Shown here one piece after another: positions 24,645 to 64,000 of a stretch of 64,000 nt of DNA. A model generated the notes under the pieces. That model made no database searches, was not told where the DNA came from, and worked only from the letters and a program-made list of their open reading frames with translations. This DNA is from Pseudomonas lijiangensis (GTDB lineage Bacteria; Pseudomonadota; Gammaproteobacteria; Pseudomonadales; Pseudomonadaceae): positions 3,731,001 to 3,795,000 of the forward strand of contig NZ_CP076668.1 of assembly GCF_018968705.1 (NCBI RefSeq). The letters run 5' to 3'. How positions within the stretch are numbered: the stretch's first letter is position 1; each line of letters opens with the position of its first letter. The position numbers and the translations under genes are program-made.

Positions 24645-24833
24645 ATGTTGATACTCACTCGCAAAGTAGGCGAAAGCATAAACATCGGTGACGAAATCAC
24701 CGTGACGATTCTTGGCGTTCAAGGACTGCAAGTCCGGCTAGGTATCAATGCACCGAAAAATGTCTCCGTGCATCGTGAAGAGATCTACAAGCGCATCCAG
24801 GCAGAACTGGCTCCAAACCAAGACCCACAATAA
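24645..24833 (+). CDS. csrA: CsrA/RsmA-family RNA-binding regulator (RsmE-like)
   Basis: Protein of 62 aa beginning [20 protein letters not shown], the five-stranded CsrA/RsmA fold. The RNA-contact residues at both ends are present (Arg6 in LTRK and the VSVHREEIY segment near residue 44, whose Arg is essential in CsrA). The sequence is closer to what I recall of RsmE than RsmA (no charged insertion after IGD). CsrA proteins bind GGA in mRNA leaders and are titrated by GGA-rich small RNAs; two such RNA candidates occur at the right end of this window. AAGGA lies before the ATG. Confidence 0.95.
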
Positions 24834-55609: not shown

Positions 55610-55812
55610 CGGGTTTAGTCGCCCAATTGTGTTAGGCGCATGGCGTCGCCAGAGTCAGATGATTTTTTCGTCTGCACTTTATGGTGGCCGTGCCCAGGGC
55701 ACCTTCGGGTGCGCCGGATCCTAACGCCCGGTCGACTAACCTGTGCACGGCTGCCACCTTTCGTTTAGTCGCGACAGGAGACAGCATTCCCTTAGCGTTA
55801 GGAATCTCCAAC
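55610..55812 (+). promoter_or_regulatory. Structured 5' leader of the DUF3077 gene
   Basis: A closing stem pairs GGTGGC (55684-55689) with GCCACC (55753-55758) and CGTGC with GCACG inside it. Within lies GGCACC-TTCG-GGTGC, a UUCG-capped hairpin. TCCTAACGC (55719-55727) is perfectly complementary to GCGTTAGGA (55795-55803), which overlaps the likely ribosome-binding site; the upstream GTTAGG at 55631-55636 can compete for CCTAAC. GTTTAGTCGC is repeated at 55613-55622 and 55764-55773. I recall similar leaders before DUF3077/DUF6124-type genes of other pseudomonads. Confidence 0.6.
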
Positions 55813-56052
55813 ATGCTCAATGCAGAACCCGCTTTACCTATTGACCACCCTTCCCTTTCCAGCCCGAACACCACGCTTGAACAATCTCTGTGCTATGCCT
55901 CGGAACTGCTCAGTTGCGCGGCCGCCACGGCTTATGAAAGCAGTGACCATCTGAATGGAACGCAACGGCATCTGGCACTTTCCGTTGTGCATCTGGTGGA
56001 AATGGCCAAAACCGTGGTTGATCGTTCGCTGAACGGGATTGAAGCACGCTGA
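55813..56052 (+). CDS. DUF3077-like small protein
   Basis: Protein of 79 aa from ATG 55813. The conserved C-terminal half is ASELLSCAAATAYESSDHLN and RHLALSVVHLVEMAKTVVDR, the helical pair that marks this Pseudomonas family; function unknown. An in-frame ATG at 55681 would add 44 residues, but that stretch is the structured RNA region and reads like random protein (Pro/Ala/Arg). The ribosome-binding site AGGA (55800-55803) lies in the element that can be sequestered by the leader. Confidence 0.7.
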   Translation: MLNAEPALPIDHPSLSSPNTTLEQSLCYASELLSCAAATAYESSDHLNGTQRHLALSVVHLVEMAKTVVDRSLNGIEAR

Positions 56053-57491: not shown

Positions 57492-59906
57492 TCAAAACTC
57501 CAACTGCGCCGAAAAAGCCACAGTCCGCGGATCCCCCAGATAGTTGCTGTTGAGCCAATACTTCTTGTCAGTCAGGTTGCTCACGTTCATGCGCAGGGTC
57601 AGGTCATTGTTGCCCAGCGCCATGCGGTAGCGGGCGCCGGCATCGAAGGTGGTGAAGGATGGCAGGCTGTAGTTGTTGGCTTCGTCTGTGTATTGCTTGC
57701 CGGTGTAGAACGCTCCGCCAGTCACTGCAAAGCCTGGCGCGGAGGCAATGTCGTATTCGGCATAGACCTTGGCCAGTTGCTTGGCGACGTTGATGGGCGT
57801 GTTGCCGTCGTTGGCCGCTACGGCGCCCTTTTTCACTTTGGGATCGAGCAGGGTCAAACCGCTGACCAGCGTCAGTTGCGGGGTGACTTTTCCAGTAACG
57901 CTGAATTCCAGGCCATTGTTTTCCTGGCGACCGTCCTGAACGTAGACCCGGGCGCTGTTGGTGTAGGCGTTGGGTTTGTCGATGTTGAAGGCTGCCAGGG
58001 TGATCAGTGTGTCGCCGATGCTGGCCTTGGCTCCGATTTCATATTGTTTGCTGATCTGGGGGGCCAGGCCGGTGCCCGAGTTGATTGCTCGCGAGGGTGC
58101 TATGCCGCCGCTTTGCAGCCCTTCGATATAGGTGGCGTAGGTGGTCAGCCAAGGCACGGGCTTGTAGATCAGCGACACGCTGGGTGAAGTCGTGCTTTCG
58201 TCATATTCGGTTTTGCGCGGGATGGCGGAGTTGACGAAGTCGTTGTTGTAGGTCTGGATCCGGGTGTGGGTGACGCCGAGGATCGTCGACCACTGTTCGT
58301 TAAAGGTGATGATGTCGCCGATCAGCAGGTTGTGGGTGTCACTGGTGCTGGAGAGGTGCTGGGCGCCGTGACCGATGGAGTAACCCGGCTTGCCGACTTG
58401 CGGTTGTTCATCGAGCGACACGGCCGGGCCGGTGACCGAGCTGTATTGCTGGCTCGGGATATGGTCCTGGTGCATCAGGGTACGTGCGGTATTGCCCTGA
58501 TAGCCCAGCGTCAGCTTGTGATCGAGGGTGCCTGTCGCGAACTGCGAATCAAGGAACAGATAGCCGGAGTACTCCCGGGTTTCAAGGGGCGCAAACGCAT
58601 ACAAAGGCTGGGTGTACACGCCCGGCGCATCGATCTGCGGGCCGGTGTAGGTGTATTCCTGGGTGTATTGCTGTGCCGCAACCGCCCCACGCAGACTGAA
58701 CGTGTCATTCAAACGCCATTTGGCCCGCACGCCCGCCTTGTCGGTCTGGTTGTCGGTGAACCCCCATCTCTGGCTGTAGAGCTTGTCGGTGTCCAGTGAT
58801 GAGGCACTTGGCCGGAAGGCCTGATTGGCGAAGAACCAATAGCTGGTGAGGCCGCGGGTCTGGCTTTCCTTGTGGGAGGCGTCGAATTGCACTTGCAGGT
58901 CGTCGCTGATGTTCCAGTCCAGCGCCAGGCTGATCATCTGCCGACGACGCTTCTGCAGATCGATGGCGGTTTCGCCATCCTGAGTCAGGAGGTTGAGTCG
59001 GTAGGCAAACTTGCCTTCGCTGTCGATCGGGCCGCCGAAGTCGCCGTGCAGGTAGTAGTTCTCGCCGCCGGCATTACCAAGGGTGACGCTGTTGTAGCGC
59101 TGGTAGGTCGGACGCTTGAGCACGTAGTTGGCCAGGCCGCCAGGAGACGCCGGGCCATACAGAAAGCCCGTGAGGCCGGTGATCACTTCCAGTTGTTCGG
59201 TGTCTTCTATGAAGTTGCCAGCATCGGCGAGTGTGCTGAAACGCAGGCCATCGTTGGCGATGTTCAGGCTGGCGGAGCTGCTGAAACCCCGCACGTTCAC
59301 AGCACTGGCGTAACCGGCACTTTTGGGGGAGTAAAGCTGGGTGAAGGGGTTGCGCTTGAACACATCGTCGAGGGACGTGGCCTGCATGTTCTTGAGCAAT
59401 GCCTGAGACGTCACGCTCATGGAATAAGGCGTGTCCTGCAGTTTCATGCCGCCCAGAGCGCCGACATTGTTGATGCTGTCGCTCACATAACCCGCCGCTT
59501 CCGAGCCTTGCAAGGCGGCGCTGCTGGCATTGATATCGACATTCGGCATGGTCAGCGTGCCTGCCTCGGTACTGACTTTGACCAGCCCATAAACCCGATC
59601 CCCCAGTTGCACCGCCTCAAGCCCGGAACCGGCCAGCAGTCTGGCGAGGCCTTGCTCCGCGCTGTAGTCACCCTCCAGTCCCGGCGAGTTCAAGCCCTGA
59701 GTCAGGGCCGGGGCGAACTGCACGGTGATTTTCGCCTGCGAGCTGAAGCCGGCAAGCGCCTGGGACAGGCTCGCTGCCTGGACGGTGTAATGCCGGGTCG
59801 CTCCGTCTGCCAGAGCACACAGCGGCTGAGCGGCCAGAGCCAGAGTCAGCAATGACAAAGCGAGCCTGTTGCGTGTGGTTGCACACGGGATACGAAGATG
59901 AGCCAT
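57492..59906 (-). CDS. TonB-dependent siderophore receptor with signalling (STN) domain
   Basis: Receptor of 804 aa. Signal peptide (LALSLLTLALAAQPLCALA), STN domain (about 38-115: HYTVQAASLSQALAGFSSQAKI), plug (DTPYSMSVTSQALLKNMQA, NVRGFSS, EDTEQLEVITGLTGFLYG) and barrel ending VAFSAQLEF. The STN and C-terminal Phe are those of transducing receptors that talk to FecR. The start at 59906 gives a normal signal peptide. It is the last gene of a sigma-FecR-receptor operon with a Fur box. Ferric siderophore is the likely ligand, type unknown. Confidence 0.93.
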   Translation of the reverse strand: MAHLRIPCATTRNRLALSLLTLALAAQPLCALADGATRHYTVQAASLSQALAGFSSQAKITVQFAPALTQGLNSPGLEGDYSAEQGLARLLAGSGLEAVQLGDRVYGLVKVSTEAGTLTMPNVDINASSAALQGSEAAGYVSDSINNVGALGGMKLQDTPYSMSVTSQALLKNMQATSLDDVFKRNPFTQLYSPKSAGYASAVNVRGFSSSASLNIANDGLRFSTLADAGNFIEDTEQLEVITGLTGFLYGPASPGGLANYVLKRPTYQRYNSVTLGNAGGENYYLHGDFGGPIDSEGKFAYRLNLLTQDGETAIDLQKRRRQMISLALDWNISDDLQVQFDASHKESQTRGLTSYWFFANQAFRPSASSLDTDKLYSQRWGFTDNQTDKAGVRAKWRLNDTFSLRGAVAAQQYTQEYTYTGPQIDAPGVYTQPLYAFAPLETREYSGYLFLDSQFATGTLDHKLTLGYQGNTARTLMHQDHIPSQQYSSVTGPAVSLDEQPQVGKPGYSIGHGAQHLSSTSDTHNLLIGDIITFNEQWSTILGVTHTRIQTYNNDFVNSAIPRKTEYDESTTSPSVSLIYKPVPWLTTYATYIEGLQSGGIAPSRAINSGTGLAPQISKQYEIGAKASIGDTLITLAAFNIDKPNAYTNSARVYVQDGRQENNGLEFSVTGKVTPQLTLVSGLTLLDPKVKKGAVAANDGNTPINVAKQLAKVYAEYDIASAPGFAVTGGAFYTGKQYTDEANNYSLPSFTTFDAGARYRMALGNNDLTLRMNVSNLTDKKYWLNSNYLGDPRTVAFSAQLEF

Positions 59907-59993
59907 GGAGCAAAATGTCCTTTGGTGATTTACAGATTCACAACCAAGGACGAGCACCGCAGAAAAACGGGCCAAAAAAGACGGTGTGAAAAA

Positions 59994-60926
59994 TCACGTT
60001 TTGCTCACCGTCACCCAATAACGGGTTCGATAATTCACGGTAACCGGGAGCGTGATCGGCAGCGCGGCGAGGATGGCGTCGCTGTTGTCGAGCTGGAAGC
60101 CACCGCTGATACGCAAGGCCGATGCGCTTTCGTCACAGTGCAGCCGACCCGGTCGATAGCGGGTCAGCTCCTGAAGGAAATCCCCCAGCGGCATGTTCTC
60201 GGCCACCAGCTCGCCTTGTGTCCAGCGGGTAGCCAGCTCGCTGGCCGGACGCAAAGGGCCGAAGGCATCTGCGCTGAAAGACACTTGTTCTCCGGCTTCC
60301 ACGACCTGTGGCGCTGCCTGCTCGGGCGTGGCCCGAACCCGGCCCTGGAGCACCGCAAGTTGTGTGGTGCCACTGAGTTGACGCACGCTGAAGCGCGTCC
60401 CCAAGGGTTCCATGAGCCCTTGTGCGCTGGCCACTCGCAGAGGACGGGCATCGACGCCGGTACGGATCAATATCTCCCCGCGCACCAGACGGATCAGCCG
60501 CTGCCCGGCATCGAATCGCACGTCGATGGCGCTGTCGGTGTTCAGGTCGACCACGCTTCCGTCAGCGAGTGTCAGTTGCTGCCGTTCGCCTGTGCGGGTT
60601 CGGTAGTCGGCCATCCAGCCCTGGTCGGAGCCAAAGCGATAGCCAAGGTAGCCAGCGGGCGCAATGGCAGCCAGCACCAGCAGCGTCTTCAAGACCTGAC
60701 GTCGTTCGCGGTTGAGAGTGCCCATGGCAATGGAAGGCGGCAGACCACCCAATTGCTGTTGCACATGCTGCACCCGCTGCCAGGCACGCTCATGCTCCGG
60801 GTCGGCCGCACGCCACCGCGCACAGGCCTGCTGTTGCGCGGGGCTCAGTGACTGCTCATGCATCAGCACAAGCCAATGGGCGGCCTGACGGGCAACATCG
60901 CGACTGATCGGTGCCTGTGCGGACAT
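59994..60926 (-). CDS. FecR-family anti-sigma/sigma regulator
   Basis: Protein of 310 aa. The N-terminal cytoplasmic DUF4880 (ARQAAHWLVLMHEQSLSPAQQQ .. RWRAADPEHERAWQRV) binds the sigma factor, one membrane helix (TLLVLAAIAPAGYLGYRFG, about 85-103) follows, then the periplasmic FecR domain (YRTRTGERQQLTLADGSVVDLNTDSAIDV) and a C-terminal STN-like part that would meet the receptor. Start ATG overlaps the sigma stop (TAATG). Note that FecR (87 bases) separates sigma and receptor. Confidence 0.93.
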   Translation of the reverse strand: MSAQAPISRDVARQAAHWLVLMHEQSLSPAQQQACARWRAADPEHERAWQRVQHVQQQLGGLPPSIAMGTLNRERRQVLKTLLVLAAIAPAGYLGYRFGSDQGWMADYRTRTGERQQLTLADGSVVDLNTDSAIDVRFDAGQRLIRLVRGEILIRTGVDARPLRVASAQGLMEPLGTRFSVRQLSGTTQLAVLQGRVRATPEQAAPQVVEAGEQVSFSADAFGPLRPASELATRWTQGELVAENMPLGDFLQELTRYRPGRLHCDESASALRISGGFQLDNSDAILAALPITLPVTVNYRTRYWVTVSKT

Positions 60927-61432
60927 TAAAACGTCACGTCGCTCAGGATGCAGGCTTCAAAGGCAGTGGCCATATGACGCTTGACCGTGCGCTCGCCAAT
61001 GCCCAACTCCCGGGCGATCTGCACATAAGTCAGGCCATCGATCTGCGCCAGCAGAAATACCGCGCGCACGACGGGCTTCAAGCGGTCGAGCAAGGCGTCG
61101 AGCTGGAACAGGGTTTCGCGCATGTGGCATTGCTCTTCCGGCGACAAGGCAAAAGCCTCGGGCACCTGGGCGAGCATGTCGAGATAGGCCCGCTCCAGGG
61201 ACTGGCGCCGAAAGTAGTCGCAAACCAGCCGTTGCCCCACCGTCGCCAAATAGGCCCGTGGACGGTCCAGGGTCAGGGTTTCGCCGGTTTTACGCTGTGA
61301 AGTGAGGATGCGCAGAAAAGTATCCTGCGCCAGATCCGCCGCCTGGCTGGTGCAACCCAGACGATGATAAAGCCAGCCCGTCAGCCAGCTGTTGTGCTCT
61401 GCATAGAGAAGCCCTATACGATCCTCGCCCAC
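60926..61432 (-). CDS. ECF sigma factor (FecI type)
   Basis: Protein of 168 aa. Region 2 (HNSWLTGWLYHRLGCTSQAADLAQDTFLRIL) and region 4 (EQCHMRETLFQLDALLDRL .. IDGLTYVQIARELGIGERTVKRHMATA) are complete. I prefer the GTG at 61432 since GGAGG is six bases upstream; a TTG at 61447 would overlap that ribosome-binding site. Iron-starvation control is shown by a Fur box 35 bases upstream. It should direct RNA polymerase to the receptor gene's promoter. Confidence 0.92.
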   Translation of the reverse strand: MGEDRIGLLYAEHNSWLTGWLYHRLGCTSQAADLAQDTFLRILTSQRKTGETLTLDRPRAYLATVGQRLVCDYFRRQSLERAYLDMLAQVPEAFALSPEEQCHMRETLFQLDALLDRLKPVVRAVFLLAQIDGLTYVQIARELGIGERTVKRHMATAFEACILSDVTF

Positions 61433-61466
61433 GACGCGCCTCCCCAAAGAAGCGGCGATAATAATT

Positions 61467-62104: not shown

Positions 62105-63232
62105 TCAGCGCTGCGCGTCGGAAAACTGTACTGACAGATGAATATTCAACGGCTCGTTGATCGCCGCCAGGTACTCGTCAACGGTGATTTCGCCCACGCA
62201 GGCTCGGGCACCGGGCTCAGGCGTGTAGCCGCGATTGACCTTTTCCATCAGGGCGACGGCTGCGCAACTGGGGATTTCCGGGCCTTTGTCATTAGAGGCC
62301 GTCAATTGCACTGTCATCAATAGCGGCCTTGCGTCATGGTCAAGGCCGTGGACATCGATGAACATCGCACTTTTGCCATCCCCGAAACGCTCGAACCAGG
62401 TTCCCCAGCGATGCAGCCTCGCAGCCCATGCTGGAACGGAACGGATCAAACCCACCTTTACCGCCAGAGCCAGCAAGTAATTAGCGACGCCTCCGAGTTT
62501 CAAACCCGATCCCGCCTTGAAGCTCAGGTTGCGGGCACCATAGCGCCCGGCAAAGATATCCATATCGGGCACATCGACATTGGCCAGGAGCCGGGTGCCC
62601 ATCATCGGCATCTTGCGCAGGACAAGCCCCTGCCAGCCGGAAACCGCATGCACCCGCCCTTCCTTGAGCTGATTGATCGGCTTGCCGGCATAGGCCAGTA
62701 CCCCTTCGATGGTCGACAGACCGGGCATTTTCGCCGACGAAGAAATGCCGTGGTTGATGGTGTCGATGCGGGTAAAGCGATGACGATGCTGATCGATGAT
62801 GGCCGAAGACAGCGAAGGCACGGAACTGCAACCGCTGAAGATCGCCACGCCTGCTGCTCTGGCCCGGGCATCGAGCACGGAAATACCGTTGACGAAATGG
62901 CGACAGTCGGACAAATCGCAGTAATTGACCCCGGCATCGATGCAGGACTCGGCAATGGCATAGGATTGCCCCTGAAACGGGCCAGCCGTATGAATCACCC
63001 AATCAATGCCCATTTGCGCCAGGACCGGTTTCAGCTCTGCGCCCATGGCGTTGCCACACCAGCCTTGCACCGCCTTGCCAGACTGCCGCCCAAGCGCCTC
63101 GACCTTTTGAGAGAGCTTTTGCGCATCACGCCCTGTAATGACCAGTTCGATATCGGGAACGGCTGCGAGATGCCGGCAAATGATGCTGCCGAAATTTCCA
63201 TAACCGCCGACCACCATCACCCTGAGCGTCAT
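62105..63232 (-). CDS. Saccharopine-dehydrogenase-like NAD(P)-binding protein
   Basis: Protein of 375 aa. An N-terminal Rossmann fold (VMVVGGYGNFGSIICRHLAA, residues 5-24; ELVITGRD) and IDWVIHTAGPFQGQ .. GVNYCDLSDC are characteristic of the saccharopine dehydrogenase/trans-acting enoyl reductase family. The C-terminal two-thirds are less conserved. It forms a two-gene operon with the DUF2269 protein; together they may reduce a lipid or polyketide-like substrate at the membrane, which is inference. GGGAAGA precedes the ATG. Confidence 0.85.
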   Translation of the reverse strand: MTLRVMVVGGYGNFGSIICRHLAAVPDIELVITGRDAQKLSQKVEALGRQSGKAVQGWCGNAMGAELKPVLAQMGIDWVIHTAGPFQGQSYAIAESCIDAGVNYCDLSDCRHFVNGISVLDARARAAGVAIFSGCSSVPSLSSAIIDQHRHRFTRIDTINHGISSSAKMPGLSTIEGVLAYAGKPINQLKEGRVHAVSGWQGLVLRKMPMMGTRLLANVDVPDMDIFAGRYGARNLSFKAGSGLKLGGVANYLLALAVKVGLIRSVPAWAARLHRWGTWFERFGDGKSAMFIDVHGLDHDARPLLMTVQLTASNDKGPEIPSCAAVALMEKVNRGYTPEPGARACVGEITVDEYLAAINEPLNIHLSVQFSDAQR

Positions 63233-63367: not shown

Positions 63368-63571
63368 GGCTCGACGTATAGCCAAAGGCTTACACGAGCC
63401 AAGGACAATTCGCTCTTTCTGCCCTTCGAGAAGGCTCGTAAGATTGGATCCAACAACTGATGAACAGGAAGTTCATCAGGATCAAGGATGATCGACCATG
63501 GCTCGGATGGCTGCCGACAGGGAGTTGGAATGGTCTTTGGAAAAGGAAAAAACCCGCTTCGGCGGGTTTTT
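63368..63571 (+). ncRNA. GGA-rich small RNA, copy 1 (candidate CsrA/RsmA-binding sRNA)
   Basis: About 200 bases, non-coding, with ten GGA trinucleotides. A 5' hairpin (GGCTCG 63368-63373 with CGAGCC 63395-63400, apical AGCC-AAA-GGCT), a central hairpin with perfect 9-bp arms and loop AGGAA (63457-63479), an outer stem GACCAT/ATGGTC (63494-63499, 63540-63545) and terminator AACCCGC-TTCG-GCGGGTT plus T-run (63551-63571). GGA in the hairpin loop is the CsrA/RsmA target form. The 119-base 5' part recurs 510 bases downstream. Exact RNA ends and promoter are not visible. RgsA or an RsmX/Y/Z-like RNA are possible names. Confidence 0.65.
63551..63571. terminator. Two-way terminator between sRNA 1 and DUF2986 gene
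   Basis: AACCCGC-TTCG-GCGGGTT with T-run on the plus strand and, read from the other side, TTTTTTCC after the stem. It can serve both convergent units. Confidence 0.85.
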
Positions 63572-63617
63572 ATTTGCCCGCAGAAAAGTGAACCAGACGG
63601 CTCAGCGCCTCATCTCT

Positions 63618-63779
63618 TCAATTGGAATCTGCAACAGTCCCCTCTTGAGCGGCTTCGGCAGCCATCTTCAATCGGTCAGCCTTGCAAATGTATTTAGGCT
63701 TGCTCTTGGGTGCCAGTTTGGCACTGGCCTTCTTGGCGTGTGCCTTCAACAGCTGCTGGATCTTTTTACGGCGATTCAT
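63618..63779 (-). CDS. DUF2986 small basic protein
   Basis: Protein of 53 aa beginning MNRRKKIQQLLKAHAKKASA and containing KPKYICKADRLKMAAEAAQ; strongly basic first half, acidic end. This is the DUF2986 family of small Gammaproteobacterial proteins of unknown role. Upstream GTGGGA. It is below the usual size limit of gene callers. It lies between the two sRNA copies on the opposite strand. Confidence 0.8.
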   Translation of the reverse strand: MNRRKKIQQLLKAHAKKASAKLAPKSKPKYICKADRLKMAAEAAQEGTVADSN

Positions 63780-63877
63780 GTTTCCCACTCACCTTGCGAA
63801 TGCCTGGATGATATCAGCTTGAGATAGCGAGCCAGAGCCCTGAAGAGCCGGTTGATCAGAGGCCATGGAAAATTTCA

Positions 63878-64000
63878 CAGCCGACGTATAGCCAAAGGCT
63901 TACACGAGCTGAGGACAATTCGCTATTTTTGCCCTTCAAGAAGGCCCGTAAGATTGGATCCAACAACTGGTGAACAGGGAGTTCGCCAGGATCAAGGACG
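63878..64000 (+). ncRNA. GGA-rich small RNA, copy 2 (partial, runs off the window)
   Basis: 63882-64000 matches 63372-63490 without gaps (about 11 mismatches in 119). The GGA hairpin is kept at 63967-63989 with loop AGGGA; a base pair changes on both sides (A-T to G-C), and another becomes G-T, so the fold and not the sequence is conserved. The 3' part lies outside the window. Confidence 0.65.

Follow-up and report, generated by a model that had tools for sequence, protein, structure and literature searches.

What are the two similar stretches of DNA that enclose a small gene at the end of the window, the 64,000-nucleotide stretch of Pseudomonas lijiangensis analysed here, and how did they come to stand side by side at this locus? 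The original prediction read them as tandem small RNAs titrating CsrA/RsmA, which might resemble RsmX or RgsA or belong to a family not yet named. Both repeats are rsmX genes, two of five in the genome. We regard it as highly probable that this pair comprises predicted GacA-activated sponge RNAs for RsmA/RsmE with flanks that suggest recombination between the repeats.

Identity and extent of the two repeats

The direct repeat was located where it had been predicted, at 63372-63488 and 63882-63998 (117 bases, 91% identity, spacing 510 within the 64-kb window). Its description as free of indels held inside the window and failed in the genome, where the match between the copies was gapless to about 63540 and then broken by an 8-base indel ahead of the terminator, so that the matched RNAs comprised 121 bases (copy 1) and 113 bases (copy 2). 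The genes on which the argument turns are as follows.

62105-63232: Sacchrp_dh-family neighbour gene (protein identity comparison)
63452..63572, + strand: rsmX RNA, copy 1 (Rfam RF02144, 109.5 bits, cut-off 56)
63618..63788, - strand: DUF2986 gene, flanked by the two copies and regarded as a bystander (PF11661, 67.1 bits)
63962..64000, + strand: rsmX RNA, copy 2, first 39 bases (RF02144, 31.6 bits as a cut fragment)
24645..24800, + strand: csrA-family gene, encoding a possible target protein of the sponge RNAs (PF02599, 92.2 bits)

When the whole window was searched against all Rfam families, copy 1 was matched with an E-value of 7.9e-20, which excludes a chance match. Copy 2 extends beyond the window end to G000:C1:3795074 and, complete in the genome, scored 112.6 bits with RF02144; both window copies surpassed the rsmX cut-off about twofold. 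Over the whole rsmX unit, the identity of the pair was 88.8%. The ten GGA motifs reported for 63368-63571 were counted correctly; eight of them fall within the copy-1 RNA, and the copy-2 RNA contains six. The DUF2986 gene and the csrA gene named in the original prediction were also confirmed as listed above. A plasmid search gave no match.

The pair might instead be RgsA (P16) or an unnamed family, and its size near 120 bases is indeed that of RgsA (PMC2375449, accessible part). We give this reading next to no credence, as the rsmX scores are 109.5 and 112.6 bits, the two RNAs carry eight and six GGA against one in RgsA, and no other Rfam family exceeded its cut-off in the repeat stretch. RgsA itself gave no match at its cut-off in the window scan, and copy 1 combines eight GGA with the upstream palindrome described below. 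According to the accessible text of PMC2375449, RgsA is like the window copies in its length of about 120 bases and in being influenced by GacA, and differs from them in its single GGA, its RpoS dependence, an unrelated upstream motif in place of the GacA palindrome, and the lack of a titration effect there. What stands of the earlier interpretation is the RsmX-type pair, a predicted CsrA/RsmA titrator to which the Rfam scores, GGA loops, covariation and GacA-box-like sites point; the likeness to RgsA and the unnamed family fall away, only rsmX having reached its Rfam cut-off in this stretch. Since the pair is rsmX, no new RNA family is required, and as RNA it is ordinary, representing a known family and a known Pseudomonas small-RNA gene.

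RNA structure, upstream sites and Gac/Rsm complement

The elements in and around the two RNAs are listed below.

63377..63394, + strand: GacA-box-like palindrome TATAGCCAAAGGCTTACA, copy 1 (genome pattern match; 75 bases upstream of the RNA)
63439..63444, + strand: possible -10 element TAAGAT, copy 1 (putative, chosen by eye)
63457..63479, + strand: hairpin 1, loop AGGAA (Rfam structure; five of nine pairs changed on both sides among 32 distinct relatives)
63480..63493, + strand: hairpin 2, loop AAGGAT (Rfam structure, covariation, loop count)
63501..63511, + strand: hairpin 3, loop CGGAT (Rfam structure, covariation, loop count)
63514..63528, + strand: hairpin 4, loop AGGGA (Rfam structure, covariation, loop count)
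63550..63569, + strand: terminator hairpin, copy 1 (Rfam structure, covariation; kept in 33 of 33 aligned rows)
63887..63904, + strand: GacA-box-like palindrome, copy 2 (genome pattern match; 74-75 bases upstream of the RNA)

The structural alignment comprised 33 of 55 rsmX units: 18 from the P. cichorii clade, eight from G191, G055 and G065, which we take to be P. syringae-like, and seven from G049 and G148. Divergent single copies (among them the fifth copy of this genome), G093, G113, G021 and some G049/G148 units were left out. Over the 32 distinct rows, the Rfam structure paired in 95.0% of cells, and eight of 36 pairs were changed on both sides, compared with a shuffle mean of 2.7 and with none of 500 shuffles as high. 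When the partners were slid by one to three columns, at most two both-side-changed pairs remained. Two pairs were weakly kept, columns 49/78 being unpaired in 20 of 32 rows and columns 6/28 in 10 of 32. The differences between the window copies in the first stem keep pairing, as had been claimed (63460/63476, A-T to G-C; 63461/63475, T-A to T-G), and copy 1 ends in the expected terminator hairpin; copy 2 also has a terminator, past the window end. GGA was present in all four loop regions in every one of the 33 rows, three of the four regions being taken one column wider than the loop, and the comparison with other Pseudomonas found the four GGA loops and the terminator kept in all 33 chosen relatives. 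The RNA structure is backed by compensatory changes.

Related copies of the repeat do occur at several loci, and the modules between them vary, which would suit a dispersed intergenic DNA element with no RNA function. This explanation is nevertheless very improbable, as the conserved unit spans from palindrome to terminator, compensatory changes keep the stems, and the GGA loops persist throughout the 33 chosen rows.

The 18-bp palindrome pattern TATAGCCNNNNGCTTACA had exactly five matches in 5.87 Mb and its reversed control none; all five lie 74-75 bases upstream of the five rsmX genes, one each. The GacA-box consensus is TGTAAG-N6-CTTACA, from which the left half of the palindrome departs here. 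Among the 55 rsmX units compared, a site T-N11-CTTACA was found upstream of 43 and was absent from 12. A palindromic upstream sequence, a potential GacA site, precedes rsmX, rsmY and rsmZ in the accessible part of PMC2375449, and the 18-bp palindrome of this genome may be read as that site. Transcription of copy 1 would be expected to start near 63449-63450.

The genome, one contig of 5.87 Mb, contains five rsmX above cut-off (RF02144). Besides the window pair, there are two at C1:5679122 and 5679360, which form the second tandem pair, and one divergent copy that stands singly at C1:1758923. The genome also encodes one rsmY above cut-off (124.8 bits; RF00195, cut-off 57), one rsmZ away from the window pair (137.3 bits; RF00166, cut-off 44), three csrA-family genes (PF02599) and one gacA-family gene (314.5 bits with NF007018, cut-off 280), NF007018 being the UvrY/GacA family. 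Membership of the window copies in RsmY was rejected at 33 and 32.2 bits, below the cut-off of 57, and membership in RsmZ was rejected with the only RF00166 match of the genome lying elsewhere.

A candidate sixth rsmX at window 56309-56188 (-) reached 35.4 bits, below cut-off. The match overlaps a 122-aa reading frame at its 3' end and the terminator that follows, its alignment to the model has a large insert and gaps, and it has none of the five palindromes nearby. We take it as a likely chance match, which is a matter of judgement, the E-value of 3.7e-05 in a 401-base search being not poor. Elsewhere in the window, an ECF sigma factor, a FecR-type regulator and a TonB-dependent receptor stand in a row at 57492-61447 (-), an ordinary-looking uptake signalling set.

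In the proposed role, phosphorylated GacA would switch on each rsmX at the palindrome 75 bases upstream. An RNA of 113-121 bases would then be made, and RsmA/RsmE-type proteins would be bound and sequestered by the GGA loops of its hairpins. Target messages would thereby escape these repressors, in keeping with the established role of the family. Titration of RsmA/RsmE is a family property, given the published work on rsmX kin, and is expected in this strain by analogy. More sponge RNA would be expected from several rsmX genes than from one.

The locus in the P. cichorii clade and its exchanged flanks

The Sacchrp_dh protein was 94% identical to that of P. cichorii MAFF 302096, 93% to that of P. 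capsici Pc19-1 and 87% to that of P. cichorii ICMP 3353, and 71-75% identical in 13 other loci; the genome of the window was placed in the P. cichorii clade on the basis of these values. In an Rfam scan of 15 of the 16 Sacchrp_dh loci, rsmX adjoined the gene in the three P. cichorii-clade loci, and no rsmX was found beside it in the DNA examined of the 12 others scanned, which for L023 and L028 covers only about 440 bases on that side. The locus holds two rsmX here, three in P. capsici, three in MAFF 302096 and one in ICMP 3353, out of five, seven, five and five genome-wide, respectively (for P. capsici Pc19-1, L118-L121, the seven are above cut-off). A tree of 55 units placed 11 copies belonging to the four P. 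cichorii-clade genomes in a group of their own (support 95/88), consisting of the nine at this locus, P. capsici C1:92287 and ICMP 3353 C44:90185. The divergent single copy clustered with those of P. syringae-like genomes (100/100), and the second pair of this genome with its P. cichorii-clade counterparts; many forks of this tree are open and its bootstrap had not settled. Variation at this locus from one to three rsmX across the four P. cichorii-clade genomes, which have five to seven genome-wide, is new.

The content between the Sacchrp_dh gene and a LysR-type gene varies among the four genomes (unscanned module genes were named by eye). Here the order is rsmX, DUF2986, rsmX. In P. capsici it is rsmX, DUF2986, rsmX, a metallophosphoesterase-like gene, an FG-GAP-like gene, a second LysR-type gene and rsmX; in MAFF 302096, rsmX, a small lipoprotein-like gene, rsmX, DUF2986, metallophosphoesterase-like, FG-GAP-like, second LysR-type and rsmX; and in ICMP 3353, a C4 RNA with a small gene, and rsmX. 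The window has a C4 antisense RNA of its own at 55677-55761 (+) (RF01695, 74.6 bits), which precedes a small reading frame inside 55681-56052; by eye, a like protein stands behind the C4 RNA beside rsmX in ICMP 3353 (L029).

The DUF2986 family is present in 361 of 398 genus genomes, and its gene lies between rsmX copies here and in P. capsici and outside the nearest pair in MAFF 302096. This distribution and position do not support a functional link between rsmX and DUF2986, which looks like a bystander.

Flanks of nine copies were compared, taking 220 bases ahead of the palindrome and 245 bases past the terminator; only pairs that scored well above the best among 20 shuffles are reported. The upstream flank of copy 2 matched that of the middle P. 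capsici copy (score 330, best shuffle 20). Its downstream flank did not match that copy in this comparison, but matched the outermost copies of P. capsici (272, best shuffle 24) and MAFF 302096 (108) and the ICMP 3353 copy (149). Copy 1 matched the first MAFF 302096 copy upstream (211) and the second one downstream (92). This joint is shared with P. capsici, since copy 1 is colinear with the first P. capsici copy on both sides (234 and 369). At each window copy, the two flanks correspond to those of two separate rsmX copies in a relative, which is likewise new.

When the middle and outermost P. capsici copies were taken as sources of copy 2, its five informative sites within RNA bases 46-80 agreed with the middle copy, and those at base 87 and base 122, the latter nine bases beyond the RNA, agreed with the outermost copy. 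Across the 90 upstream bases the count was mixed, five to four. No switch was seen at sites within the RNA when MAFF 302096 or ICMP 3353 served as the downstream (3') source. Local flank scores were used in place of downstream site counts because gap columns blur those counts where the flanks are unrelated. The first and last copies of MAFF 302096 are 96.8% alike, against 90.5 and 91.5% for each with its positional P. capsici counterpart, which fits gene conversion between them; the window pair (88.8%) bore no sign of conversion.

Exchanged flanks are what recombination between rsmX repeats would be expected to give, and such recombination between direct repeats may have moved the gene-module boundaries, by loss or by gain. 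The 13 other Sacchrp_dh loci do not tell the two directions apart, since in the DNA examined they share no neighbours with this locus on the rsmX side. The copies likely sit at junctions where neighbouring gene blocks were lost or gained. The wider proposal is that P. cichorii-clade rsmX acts as a recombination joint, with direct rsmX repeats on either side of gene modules and crossing-over within the RNA gene that removes or adds modules and sets the number of Gac-controlled sponge RNAs at once, both window copies being such joints; we advance it tentatively, at a little short of an even chance. Separate insertions, transfers or rearrangements that ended beside rsmX would also leave two rsmX genes with exchanged flanks. 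Only four genomes were compared, the repeat itself offers few informative sites and those are mixed, the 13 other loci give no order of events, and at this site ICMP 3353 has the C4 RNA module but a single rsmX, all of which leave room for this account, while the change of flank identity coincides with rsmX at both window copies and counts against it; we hold it possible, on the doubtful side of evenly balanced.

Under crossing-over between repeats, regulator dosage and local gene content would change together, and the flank evidence suggests that the rsmX copies themselves may drive variation in their number. The analysis contributes a lineage whose rsmX array varies, from one to three copies at one locus and from five to seven per genome, and makes testable the idea of rsmX dosage as an evolving control knob of the Gac/Rsm cascade in plant-associated bacteria. 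The pair is mildly interesting as a regulatory RNA gene at joints of local rearrangement.

Comparison with known rsmX systems

Among 199 genus genomes, an rsmX match with E <= 0.001 was found in 171 and one above cut-off in 116. Tandem rsmX (above cut-off, same contig and strand, less than 1.1 kb apart) occurred, counted by eye, in at least 20 of the 199, this one included. The genus genome G148 (C1, L147-L150) carries eight rsmX above cut-off, three of them within about 2 kb, which is more than the five reported for P. syringae.

Five rsmX and tandem rsmX pairs are already published for other Pseudomonas. A literature search, with most subscription papers outside its scope, found no description of this rsmX locus. 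According to the accessible parts of PMC7911923 and PMC6715622, P. syringae has five rsmX, of which rsmX-3 and rsmX-4 are close neighbours, and Table 1 of the former places this tandem pair of DC3000 about 292 bases apart. In P. amygdali 1448A, rsmX1-5 were expressed and were reduced in a gacA mutant (PMC7600136, accessible part), and RsmX1 and RsmX5 of kin bind RsmA proteins (PMC6715622, likewise).

As far as these excerpts go, P. syringae pv. tomato DC3000 and its kin share with this genome the five rsmX, rsmY and rsmZ, a tandem pair and GGA hairpins; GacA dependence was demonstrated there and is predicted for this strain. Unlike theirs, the window pair occupies a different locus, where it adjoins a Sacchrp_dh gene and encloses DUF2986, and in the tree its copies belong to a group made up entirely of P. 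cichorii-clade copies. It is the second pair of this genome, not the window pair, that has a flanking gene family in common with the tandem pair of G191. The rsmX-1 and rsmX-2 genes of P. brassicacearum NFM421 are likewise a tandem duplication, with copies of about 110 bases that are GacA-dependent there, according to the accessible part of PMC7911923. That pair is about 75% identical and about 210 bases apart, whereas the window pair is 88.8% identical and 510 apart, with a gene between.
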